Positions 59,262 through 64,000 of a stretch of DNA of 64,000 nt are shown piece after piece. Position numbers and translations under genes: made by a program. Source of the stretch: Desulfoluna spongiiphila (GTDB taxonomy: Bacteria; Desulfobacterota; Desulfobacteria; Desulfobacterales; Desulfolunaceae); NCBI RefSeq assembly GCF_900101345.1, contig NZ_FMUX01000002.1, positions 248,001 through 312,000 on the forward strand. The letters run 5' to 3'. The notes under the pieces were generated by a model. The model saw nothing but the letters and a program-made list of their open reading frames with translations. It searched no databases and was not told the DNA's origin. How positions within the stretch are numbered: position 1 is the first letter of the stretch; every line of letters starts with the position of its first letter.

Positions 59262-59296
59262 AGTGAATCTTCTGGAACTCGATATTGCCTTTTACT

Positions 59297-60841
59297 ATGA
59301 CTGTGTGGGGCTTGATGAAGGAATCAGGTAGTAATGCCAGTATTGATTTTGAATTTATCGCAGGGATGGTAGTTAAGTGGTACTGGGTCCTGTTGATACC
59401 CGTTACGATCTCCGTTTTTGTGGGGATATATCTGATTTATACCTCCCAGAGATTTTACGAGGCAAGGACGGTCATTCTGGTCCAGCCCCAGAAATTACCC
59501 ACGGATGTGGTGCGAAACATCATCGCCGAGGACATTAACACCCGGGTGAGTACGCTTTCCCAGCGCATCAAGAGCCGAACGAATCTCGAGAAAATCATTG
59601 ACGAATTTCATCTGTTTTCCAGTCACGAGTCAAAAGACATGTACATGGAGGACAAGATCGACACCCTCCGCCGGCGCATATCGTTTAAGGTGACCAACGG
59701 GCGAAATCGCAATGCAGACTCCTTTGCCGTCACATACAAGGGCACGGATCCTGTCCGTGTCACAAAAATTACCCAGTCCCTGGCATCGTATATCATCGAT
59801 GAAAACCTGAAGCTCAGGGAAACCCAGGTTCTCGGGACCAACTCTTTTCTGGAAGATGAGCTGGAGACCATGAGGAAAAAGCTCGTGAAGACGGAGACGG
59901 GGCTCAAGGAGTACCGCGAGCGATACATGGGAGGGCTGCCGGAGCAGTTGAACAGCAACCTGCGTATCCTGGCCTCCCTTAACGAACGCCTGCCCCATGC
60001 CAGGAACGAGGTCAGGGCCACAAAGCTCCAACTGGACGCGGTGCGCCAGAAACTCAGCCTGGCCTCCGGGACCGGTGGGCCTGCCGCCGCCGTTACGGAC
60101 CAGGGGAAAAGCGAGCTGGAACGCCTCAAAGAAGAGCTGAACGTCCGGCTGAAACGCTACACCAAACGGCACCCGGATGTGCGCAGGCTCAAAGCGTCCA
60201 TTGCCGCCCTGGAAGAGCAGCCCGCCGAAGAAGCCGGCCCTTTGCAGGAGGCACCCAAGCCCCGGGCCGCATCGCTTCTTGATCGCCAGAGACGTGAGAT
60301 CCTGGCGGAGCTTGCCGTCAGTGAAAAAGAGCTCACACAGCTCAAGGCCCAGATCGCAATCTATAAAAAAAGGGTGGAGGATACCCCCCGAAGGGAACAG
60401 GAGCTGCTCTCCCTCCAGAGGGATTACGAGAACATCCGCGGTGCCTACCACTCTCTTCTGGGCCGTCAGCTTGAGGCCCAGATTGCCGTGAACATGGAAA
60501 AGAAGCAGAAGGGCGAACAGTTTCGCATTATTGACCCTGCAAGGGTCCCGGAAAAACCGGTGGAGCCCGACATGAAAAAAATAGTGCTGTTTGTTCTGGC
60601 CGCCGGCCTGGGCCTCGGCTGCGGGGTGGTCGGGCTTCTGGAGTTCATGTTCCAGACCTTTCGAGGCCGCCGTGCCGTTGAGTCGGCCACCTCCGTGCCC
60701 GTCATCGCCACGATCCCCAACATGGAAGGATCCGGTGGGGTCCGTGCCCTTCTCTGGAAGCGGGTGGTCCCCATCTCCGGGGGGGCCATGGCATTTTCCC
60801 TTATCGGGGTGTTTCTCTGCCTTGCCTACCTGAAAGGGTGA
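59297..60841 (+). CDS. Polysaccharide chain-length determinant (Wzz/XrtA type)
   Basis: This protein of about 514 residues has a Wzz domain at the N-terminus with a first membrane helix (VVKWYWVLLIPVTISVFVGIYLI in part), a long periplasmic coiled-coil region (about 170-400), the PxxP-type end RVPEKPVEPD and a second helix, then an extra C-terminal helix. It resembles the chain-length protein of XrtA/PEP-CTERM exopolysaccharide loci. The start is uncertain among TTG 59285, ATG 59297 and ATG 59315. The tyrosine autokinase follows four bases later. Confidence 0.88.
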   Translation: MTVWGLMKESGSNASIDFEFIAGMVVKWYWVLLIPVTISVFVGIYLIYTSQRFYEARTVILVQPQKLPTDVVRNIIAEDINTRVSTLSQRIKSRTNLEKIIDEFHLFSSHESKDMYMEDKIDTLRRRISFKVTNGRNRNADSFAVTYKGTDPVRVTKITQSLASYIIDENLKLRETQVLGTNSFLEDELETMRKKLVKTETGLKEYRERYMGGLPEQLNSNLRILASLNERLPHARNEVRATKLQLDAVRQKLSLASGTGGPAAAVTDQGKSELERLKEELNVRLKRYTKRHPDVRRLKASIAALEEQPAEEAGPLQEAPKPRAASLLDRQRREILAELAVSEKELTQLKAQIAIYKKRVEDTPRREQELLSLQRDYENIRGAYHSLLGRQLEAQIAVNMEKKQKGEQFRIIDPARVPEKPVEPDMKKIVLFVLAAGLGLGCGVVGLLEFMFQTFRGRRAVESATSVPVIATIPNMEGSGGVRALLWKRVVPISGGAMAFSLIGVFLCLAYLKG

Positions 60842-60845
60842 GTCC

Positions 60846-61632
60846 ATGGGTGTTCTAAGTAAAAGGGAAGAGACTCCGGACGGCGAACACATCGGCACCC
60901 CAGGGGGCCTCGGGCCTCCGGGTGAGGTTGCCGCCAAAAAACTCGTGACCCTTTCGGACCCCTGGGGGTACAGCTCGGAACAGTTTCGGGCCGTCAAGAC
61001 CTCCATTATGTTTCCCGCTGACGGGCGCGATATTCGAACCCTTCTTGTGACAAGCGCCGTCCCCGGGGAAGGCAAAACCTTTGTGGCGGCAAACATTGCG
61101 GCGTCCCTTGCCGGCAGCATGGACAACCATGTGCTTATTGTCGACAGCGATATGAGGCGTCCGTCCATGGCCGAATTTTTCTCGCTGCCCCCCGGAGCGT
61201 CTGGCCTGGACCTTTATTTGAACCACCGATGCCCCCTTGAAGACGTGATTTATCGTACGGGCATTGATAAATTATCCCTTATTCCGGCGGGAGGCGGTGT
61301 GCCCAACCCGTCGGAGCTGATTACCTCGTCCACCATGACTCAGATGATTGCAGATGTCCGGGCGCGCTATTCAGATCGTTATGTGATTATTGATTCCCCC
61401 CCCCCCTTTGTTTGCCCCGGAGACCATCGCCATATCCAAGTATGTCGACGGGATTGTTGTTGTGATTCGAAATGATAAAACGCAGAAAAAATCTGTGGCG
61501 GAGTTGCTGGACAGGCTGGACCGGGACAAGGTCATCGGCATCGTCCTGAACAGGCACAACGCCCCCTTTGGCATGGGATACGGCTACAGAAATCCATCCC
61601 CTTACGGCAAGAAGCCGAGCAAAAAAAAGTAA
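60846..61632 (+). pseudogene. Tyrosine autokinase (BY-kinase), frameshifted at a C-tract
   Basis: Reads as a BY-kinase of the XrtA/CpsD type: Walker A VPGEGKT (Lys77), Walker A' VLIVDSDMRRPS, and the late VIIDSPP. Frame one (60846-61475) then runs into nonsense after an 11-C tract (61396-61406), while the correct continuation LFAPETIAISKYVDGIVVV lies in the next frame and ends at 61632 with a tyrosine cluster (YGYRNPSPY). Ten C's would give an intact 261-residue protein. The extra C may be a sequencing error, an off state of a phase-variable switch, or restored by slippage. It partners the chain-length protein to control polymer length. Confidence 0.85.
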
Positions 61633-61978: not shown

Positions 61979-63364
61979 ATGATCAACGTTTTTAGAAGCT
62001 ATTATACTATACGCAATCTGTTTTTGATTATGCTTGAAAGTGTGCTCCTTTATCTGTGCATCCTGTTTTCGGCGACTCTTTTTGCGGGCGGCGAAGGGGC
62101 CGGGGATTTGTCGGGCCTCTCCACGAAGGCGGGGCTTGTTGTCTCCACCTGCATTTTCTGCCTTTACTGCAACAATATCTATAGCTTGAAAGATACGAAT
62201 GGCTACGCAGACCTGGCCTTTAAGCTGTTTCAGTCCTTTGGCGCGGCCATGATTCTGCTGGCGATGGTGTATGCGGCTTTCAACCAGGCCATCATCGGTA
62301 CGAAGTTCTTTTTTGTCTATATCCCCGTCGTGGTGGCGATTCTTTCGATCTGGCGGTTTTTTTATGTCTACCTGCTCAAGTCCGGTGTGCTGAGCCAGAG
62401 CATCTATATTATCGGGGACAGCGACCTGGCCATCGATATCTGCCGGGAGACAGAAGCCGAGATCGACTGCGGGTATCGCGTCAAAGGGATCCTTTCGCGC
62501 AACCCCCTCAAGGGGATGGAATCGGTTACGGCCCCGCACATCAACACCTACGATAATTTAGCCGCAACAGCCAAAGCAAACGGCATCAAGCGCATCGTGG
62601 TTGCCCTGAAAGAGAAACGGGGCAATTTTCCCATCGACGAACTCCTCCTGTGCCGTGTGAGCGGCATCGATGTGGTTGAGGGCAATACCTTCTATGAGAT
62701 GTTGACGGGGAAATTCCTTGTCTCATCCATCAACCCCACCTGGCTGATCTTTTCAAACGGATTCAAAAAGAGCCGGATTCGAAACATCTTCAAACGGCTC
62801 GAGGATCTGTTTGCCTCCGTTATTCTGCTGGCCCTTTTTTCTCCCCTGATTCTTGTTACGGCCCTTCTTATCAAATGGGACTCCAAGGGACCGGTGCTTT
62901 TTTCCCAGGATCGCCTGGGAATTCGGCACAAGCCATACAGGCTCTATAAGTTCAGGTCCATGGTGGAGAATGCCGAGGGCCTCAGCGGTCCCGTATGGGC
63001 CAGTAGAGAGGACCCCCGGGTTACCCGTGTGGGGAAATTCATCAGGACATGGCGAATCGACGAACTCCCGCAATTGTTCAACGTACTCAAGGGAGACATG
63101 AGCCTTGTGGGACCGCGTCCGGAAAGGGAGCATTTCGTCAAGCAGCTGGAGGCCCAGGTGCCCTACTACGCCGAGCGGTTCATCGTCAGGCCCGGAGTCA
63201 CGGGGTGGGCCCAGGTGCGGTATGAGTACGGCGACTCCGTGGAAGATGCCATGGAGAAGCTCAACTACGACCTTTTTTACATCAAGAACATGAGCATTTT
63301 CATGGATGTCGTGATCGTGTGCCGGACCATCCGCACGGTTCTTTTCGGGGTGGGGGCCAGGTAG
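61979..63364 (+). CDS. Undecaprenyl-phosphate sugar-1-phosphate transferase (XrtA-type)
   Basis: This 461-residue polyprenyl glycosylphosphotransferase starts exopolysaccharide repeat-unit synthesis on undecaprenyl phosphate. Four to five N-terminal membrane helices, a CoA-binding-like middle domain (YIIGDSDLA) and the C-terminal catalytic domain (KFRSMVENAE, RIDELPQLFNVLKGDMSLVGPRPE in part, RPGVTGWAQV) are in order. It resembles the EpsB_2 family of XrtA loci. No strong SD precedes ATG 61979. The first sugar is not determined. Confidence 0.92.
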   Translation: MINVFRSYYTIRNLFLIMLESVLLYLCILFSATLFAGGEGAGDLSGLSTKAGLVVSTCIFCLYCNNIYSLKDTNGYADLAFKLFQSFGAAMILLAMVYAAFNQAIIGTKFFFVYIPVVVAILSIWRFFYVYLLKSGVLSQSIYIIGDSDLAIDICRETEAEIDCGYRVKGILSRNPLKGMESVTAPHINTYDNLAATAKANGIKRIVVALKEKRGNFPIDELLLCRVSGIDVVEGNTFYEMLTGKFLVSSINPTWLIFSNGFKKSRIRNIFKRLEDLFASVILLALFSPLILVTALLIKWDSKGPVLFSQDRLGIRHKPYRLYKFRSMVENAEGLSGPVWASREDPRVTRVGKFIRTWRIDELPQLFNVLKGDMSLVGPRPEREHFVKQLEAQVPYYAERFIVRPGVTGWAQVRYEYGDSVEDAMEKLNYDLFYIKNMSIFMDVVIVCRTIRTVLFGVGAR

Positions 63365-63497: not shown

Positions 63498-63573
63498 GAC
63501 CCGTTTTTCTGTTGGTCGGGGACGGCAATTTTACGTTGGTATCGTGGGCTCATGGAACCCAAGGGGCGAAGCT

Positions 63574-64000
63574 ATGTCTTGTCGTCAGGTCGTTGCGGTT
63601 GTCTTGGTTGTGCTGTTGGCTGGGGTTTTCTCAGGGACCCCGGCCCGGGCAAAAAAAAGGGAAGAGCCAAACTATACCCTGGGCTATGGGGACGTGATCG
63701 ATGTCCTGGTGTGGAAGGAGGCGGATTTTACGGTTGAAGGCCTCACGGTACGTCTCGACGGAAAAATCACCTTGCCCCTGGTCAATGATATCCGGGCCGA
63801 AGGACAGACAACCCGGCAACTCAAGGCCCACCTTGAAATTGTTCTGCGAAAGTATATTGAGAGCCCCGTGGTGACAGTGCTCTTAAAAGAGGCTCGGAGC
63901 CAGCGGTTCTATATCCTCGGGGAGGTCATGCAAACGGGGGAGTATTCCCTGACCAAAGAGTTGACGGTCCTTCAGGCCTTTGCCATCGCCGGCGGGTTTA
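63574..64000 (+). CDS. Polysaccharide export protein (Wza-like), partial
   Basis: The gene starts at ATG 63574 (AAGGGGCG upstream) and runs off the right edge after 142 codons. A signal peptide (VVAVVLVVLLAGVFSGTPARA) precedes the polysaccharide export domain: YTLGYGDVIDVLVWKE, DGKITLPLVNDIRAEG, and the start of a SLBB domain (FYILGEVMQTGEYSLTKELTVLQAFAIAGG, in part). No lipobox cysteine is seen near the cleavage site. It forms the outer-membrane pore in related loci. Confidence 0.9.
   Translation, partial: MSCRQVVAVVLVVLLAGVFSGTPARAKKREEPNYTLGYGDVIDVLVWKEADFTVEGLTVRLDGKITLPLVNDIRAEGQTTRQLKAHLEIVLRKYIESPVVTVLLKEARSQRFYILGEVMQTGEYSLTKELTVLQAFAIAGGF

Follow-up and report, generated by a model that had tools for sequence, protein, structure and literature searches.

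A C11 run splits an exopolysaccharide tyrosine autokinase gene in the Desulfoluna spongiiphila assembly and is probably an unselected one-base length change

The poly-C tract of Neisseria siaD is a homopolymer in a phase-variable surface-polysaccharide gene. Homopolymer phase variation has also been described for the O1 antigen genes of Vibrio cholerae (PMC3441752). Like the homopolymers of siaD and of the O1 antigen genes, the C11 run described here lies within the coding region of a surface-polysaccharide gene; reversible length variation within a strain has been demonstrated in those systems, whereas the Desulfoluna run is known from one assembly.

In Akkermansia muciniphila, a G9 run in Amuc_1413 became G10 in several evolved strains, with both states mixed in the reads and with loss of mucus binding (PMC13055324). 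Amuc_1413 resembles the Desulfoluna gene in that a C/G homopolymer lies inside a gene of the polysaccharide chain-length/tyrosine-kinase type and the protein is cut short when one base is gained. The two differ in that the Akkermansia change arose repeatedly in culture, made up 87–91% of reads and had a phenotype, with run lengths of 8–10 among 100 genomes (PMC13055324), whereas the Desulfoluna C11 has been seen in a single assembly. In Acinetobacter baumannii, capsule mutants selected by phage carry one-base homopolymer changes in glycosyltransferase and export genes of the capsule locus, namely A9 to A8 in gtr6 and T9 to T10 in wzx (PMC10249906). These one-base changes are similar in kind to the one discussed here, but they affect A/T runs, were obtained under laboratory phage selection, and were proven in independent mutants.

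Spurious frameshift pseudogenes that originate from assembly are documented to be common (PMC11017572). Like the cases described below, they are single-frameshift pseudogenes scattered across a draft genome; the Desulfoluna cases are known from assembled sequence.

The C11 run and the kinase gene

The window is the whole stretch of DNA that was analyzed, 64,000 nucleotides from the marine sulfate reducer D. spongiiphila. The features around the run are given below in window coordinates.

59285–60841, + strand: intact polysaccharide chain-length determinant (Wzz-like), directly upstream of the kinase gene; NCBIfam TIGR03007, E = 1e-75, below the curated cut-off.
60846–61475, + strand: tyrosine autokinase as assembled, 209 amino acids, of which residues 1–187 are genuine and the last 22 are frameshifted.
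61408–61632, + strand: 3' remainder of the kinase gene, out of frame, LFAPETIAISKY...NRHNAPFGMGYGYRNPSPYGKKPSKKK-stop, which includes the C-terminal tyrosine cluster; pN/pS 0.30.
61979–63364, + strand: intact EpsB_2-type polyprenyl glycosylphosphotransferase of an XrtA/PEP-CTERM-type exopolysaccharide cluster; TIGR03013, 439 bits, over the cut-off of 393.
63568–63999, + strand: start of a polysaccharide export protein that continues past the end of the window; TIGR03027, E = 5e-26, a partial match below the cut-off.

The initial annotation had placed an eleven-C tract at 61396–61406, with the autokinase frame lost after VIIDSPPP, and proposed that the tract splits the gene; position, length, and frames were all verified. 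The run occupies positions 61396–61406 of the forward strand, inside the Ser-Pro-Pro-Pro codons, and is the only C/G run longer than 8 bases in the window. The frame at 60846–61475 encodes the kinase up to ...YVIIDSPPP and then reads FVCPGDHRHIQVCRRDCCCDSK to a stop codon; the neighboring frame supplies the kinase remainder (LFAPETIAISKYVDG...GYGYRNPSPYGKKPSKKK, up to 61632). Translation of run-length variants showed that C10 yields a single frame of 261 amino acids and C13 one of 262 amino acids, and that C8, C9, C11, and C12 all yield a truncated kinase. The run is, in other words, a simple repeat whose length sets the frame, with two in-frame lengths (C10 and C13) and four off-frame lengths among those translated. 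The expectation that ten Cs would give an intact 261-residue protein with a tyrosine cluster was thereby borne out, and this in-frame C10 state occurs naturally in Desulfoluna limicola.

A C11 run appeared in 43 of 100 dinucleotide shuffles of the window, and its presence as such is not surprising at this base composition. What is unusual is that it lies within a gene: of the other scorable runs of at least 10 bases in the genome, none has well-scored coding stretches on both sides, these runs being either non-coding or bordered by coding sequence on one side only. The possibility of a chance C11 outside any gene was rejected, since the two coding stretches that flank the run are halves of one kinase.

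Judged from its sequence and surroundings, the gene is that of an ordinary tyrosine autokinase of the CpsD/Wzc type and belongs to an exopolysaccharide cluster. The 5' frame contains the Walker A (PGEGKT), A' (LIVDSDMR), and B (YVIIDSPPP) motifs, and the C-terminal tyrosine cluster is found in the other frame only, so that no single frame carries both. The truncated kinase scores 111.8 bits against TIGR01007, above the curated cut-off of 108.05, with a match that reaches profile position 137 of 204. Its best match is TIGR03018 (XrtA-associated kinase), with 157 bits, which is below the cut-off of 230.65; intact relatives score 197–200. CapB, VpsO, BceF, and Wzc (PDB 4jlv, 6u1q, 6z0p, and 3la6) belong to the same sequence family, and the intact ortholog of Desulfoluna butyratoxydans could be aligned with these structure chains along its entire kinase domain (E values as low as 1e-31). 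It follows that the lost part comprises conserved sequence of the domain together with the tyrosine cluster. Unlike these four proteins, the assembled Desulfoluna kinase lacks everything past Walker B, and the truncated protein would be expected to be inactive.

Besides C11, the kinase gene contains no lesion. The pN/pS ratio relative to D. butyratoxydans is 0.30 downstream of the run and 0.23 upstream, so that the 3' part of the gene remains under purifying constraint and has not decayed. With no other lesion and comparable constraint on the 3' and 5' parts, the C11 change is either recent or not real.

The cluster genes adjoining the kinase have open frames, and an exosortase and an XrtA-type glycosyltransferase are encoded farther downstream. 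The XrtA-like context is visible in matches above the cut-offs for TIGR03013 and the exosortase family TIGR02602, and for TIGR04063 in the D. butyratoxydans ortholog of the glycosyltransferase. The source genome (G000) has a second, intact cluster of like layout (chain length, kinase, EpsB_2, and export) at about 401100–405900 of contig C16 (L137:9114–13907), the kinase of which is an intact paralog with 66% identity.

Run length in relatives and codon usage

The Desulfoluna relatives compared were D. butyratoxydans MSL71 (G001), D. limicola ASN36 (G002), and metagenome-assembled genomes (MAGs), with one genome per species. For a second strain, D. spongiiphila DBB (ANI 98.5%), a closed genome from Illumina and PacBio data (GCA_902498735) and a list of detected proteins have been published (PMC7031245). 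Intact kinase orthologs were found in G001, G002, G003, and G005; a search of six Desulfoluna genomes, including the source, matched no kinase ortholog in G004. The C run at the motif is C6 in G001 (after CCG), C10 in G002, C8 in G003, and C5 in G005 (CCCCCACCCC), and the intact paralog in the source genome has C5. The C10 of D. limicola is in frame and its immediate flanks are identical to those of the source C11 site. Among the 25 relatives read, this is the only run of at least 9 bases at the motif, and the relatives read outside Desulfoluna have C runs of at most 5. Comparison of tract length among relatives, which had been suggested as a check on phase variation, thus gave C5, C5, C6, C8, C10, and C11 across the Desulfoluna copies and no conserved tract.

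Based on the codon usage of the source genome, about 6% of Ser-Pro-Pro-Pro sequences are expected to be written as TCC CCC CCC CC(C/T). A C10 run requires common codons only and no special cause. With lengths from C5 to C11 across Desulfoluna copies and this expectation of 6%, the tract is neither conserved nor longer than codon usage gives.

Long C/G runs are rarer in coding sequence than in synonymous shuffles, with 13 observed versus 44.7 for length 8, 3 versus 12.6 for length 9, and 1 versus 5.0 for lengths of at least 10. Because coding sequence holds far fewer of these runs than the shuffles do, a long C/G run is a liability for a gene, and the initial annotation was right to regard long homopolymers as slip-prone, in that coding sequence avoids them. 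Across 559 kb of G000 coding sequence, strong avoidance relative to synonymous shuffles extends to C/G runs of at least 7 bases. Contig C1 of D. limicola has many long C/G runs of up to 18 bases (e.g., G002:C1:316311–316328), and the sampled ones of at least 11 bases score as non-coding.

Frameshifts at other C/G runs of the assembly

The source assembly comprises 6,535,106 bases in 52 contigs. A periodic Markov model, with 559 kb of coding sequence as its training set, served to score the frames on both sides of runs, and 270 matched G001 proteins were used for a protein-level comparison.

Several other genes are frameshifted at C/G runs. In nuoD, the shift is +1 at G9 (L084:1501–1509; G000:C13:148147–148155), where G001 reads GTGGGCGGGGTG; the gene occurs once in each of the six Desulfoluna genomes, and its matched open frame in the source is shorter than in any of the other five. 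A sigma-54 dependent regulator is shifted by +2 or −1 at G9 (L086:1501–1509; G000:C13:225609–225617), and an SBP_bac_5 oligopeptide-binding protein by +1 at C8 (L144:13041–13048; G000:C25). The frame scan, followed by the protein-level comparison, identified a +1 shift at G7 in the TIGR04063 XrtA-type glycosyltransferase (L133:10755–10761; G000:C16:322755–322761), which lies 13 kb downstream of the kinase in the same cluster; the G001 gene has G6, is intact, and has flanks that are 96% identical. The protein-level comparison also revealed an FMN-reductase-like gene that is frameshifted at C6 (L131:515–530; G000:C16), whereas its G001 counterpart has C5 and is intact.

In the sister genomes G001 and G002, the same frame scan found none of 72 coding C/G runs of at least 7 bases to be shifted, and in the reciprocal protein-level comparison no C/G run of G001 proved to be shifted. 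The counts are small: in the unbiased 724 kb, 3/60 runs were shifted in the source versus 0/72 in the sisters (Fisher p = 0.09), and with the listed G9 runs added, the numbers were 5/73 versus 0/72 (Fisher p = 0.06, again small counts). The excess of shifted runs in the source assembly is suggestive, not strong. Among A/T runs of at least 7 bases in the source assembly, there was no true frameshift, the two flagged cases being gene junctions.

Four apparent shifts (L145:9439, L147:12317, L139:1262, and L141:17922) were discarded because they proved to be gene junctions once the frames were read (e.g., the boundary of MurG and MurC, or a G run that immediately precedes a start codon). A further flagged run, the G8 at L138:12359, has a divergent flank. 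A mutator explanation was rejected as well, mutS and mutL being present with open frames. C/G runs of 22 bases are located at or adjoining contig ends (G000:C14:14695–14716 and C48:164582–164603), and the assembly seems to break at long C/G runs.

Origin of the extra C and its meaning

We consider it likely, with a probability of roughly 0.75, that the extra C is an unselected change of one base in the length of a slippery run and not a regulatory device. The Asp-Ser-Pro-Pro-Pro of Walker B is by chance written in C-rich codons (TCC CCC CCC CCT), which create a C10 run; with C11, as in the assembly, the protein would come to an end 22 residues past the motif, without the final portion of the kinase fold and the tyrosine cluster. 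The run does not look like a dedicated switch because +1 gains in C/G runs also break unrelated genes of the same assembly. One-base gains of this kind across unrelated genes are expected from a homopolymer-biased consensus error or from real slippage, and under error or mutation alike, several runs are affected, the kinase run among them. The chances that the extra C stems from a sequencing or assembly error are a little short of even, and a genuine slippage mutation that abolished gene function in the culture used for sequencing is a more tentative proposal, error being somewhat more likely than mutation. Error is favored because breaks occur in a conserved single-copy respiratory gene (nuoD) and at runs of only 5 to 7 bases. 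If the AA1 draft is based on Illumina data only, +1 errors in runs of 5 to 8 bases would be unexpected, and real mutation would become more probable. The sequencing or assembly error that the initial annotation had mentioned as an alternative has thus become the best fit to the genome-wide pattern of +1 changes, which falls short of proof. The chance of a second lesion within 14 kb, as seen for the kinase and the glycosyltransferase, is about 0.1, and two lesions in one exopolysaccharide cluster could reflect selection or relaxed selection.

The initial annotation had raised a possible phase-variable switch. In such a contingency locus, reversible slippage would take the C run from 10 (on) to 9, 11, or 12 (off) and back, leaving a fraction of the population without this exopolysaccharide kinase. 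Such a locus would account for a pure run of 10–11 Cs within a surface-polysaccharide gene, for off-frame lengths that truncate the kinase at once, for C10 in D. limicola versus C11 in the source, and for the fact that C11 is the sole scored run of at least 10 bases in the source genome with coding stretches on both sides, and it has a precedent in the Wzz/Wzc-like Amuc_1413, where G9 to G10 reached 87–91% of reads (PMC13055324). However, the run length is not conserved within the genus (C5, C5, C6, and C8 in other Desulfoluna copies) or in the relatives read outside it (at most 5), codon usage (6%) accounts for the C10 length, an equal +1 change occurs in metabolic genes such as the single-copy nuoD, and the second cluster contains an intact paralog (66% identical). 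A dedicated phase-variation site is therefore improbable, and this claim was not upheld. We doubt even more that the run acts as a functional on/off switch for one of the two paralogous exopolysaccharide clusters, with a surface coat that is mixed in a clonal population and the glycosyltransferase frameshift as a second switch point. The second intact cluster (C16, about 401–406 kb) and the frameshifted glycosyltransferase of the first cluster would also suit an old pseudogene, fixed in the source strain, whose role has been assumed by the paralogous cluster, but with a single lesion in the kinase, an undecayed 3' part, and open adjoining cluster genes, this is very unlikely. CCC-C is a +1-prone site for proline tRNA, and a single +1 slip restores the kinase frame, as would be needed if slippage of the ribosome or RNA polymerase on the C run produced a mixture of full-length and short kinase. 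Such recoding is highly improbable, given that D. limicola and other orthologs encode the kinase without any shift and that no off-frame arrangement is common to the genus.

As it stands, the kinase gene is mainly a caution against reading frameshifted C/G runs of this draft, including the run in nuoD, as biology ahead of a read check. If C10 and C11 did alternate reversibly in culture, this would be one more example of an established kind, akin to G9 and G10 in Amuc_1413. If the run were a true switch, homopolymer phase variation of exopolysaccharide kinases, a recent finding in Akkermansia, would be extended to a sponge-associated sulfate reducer.
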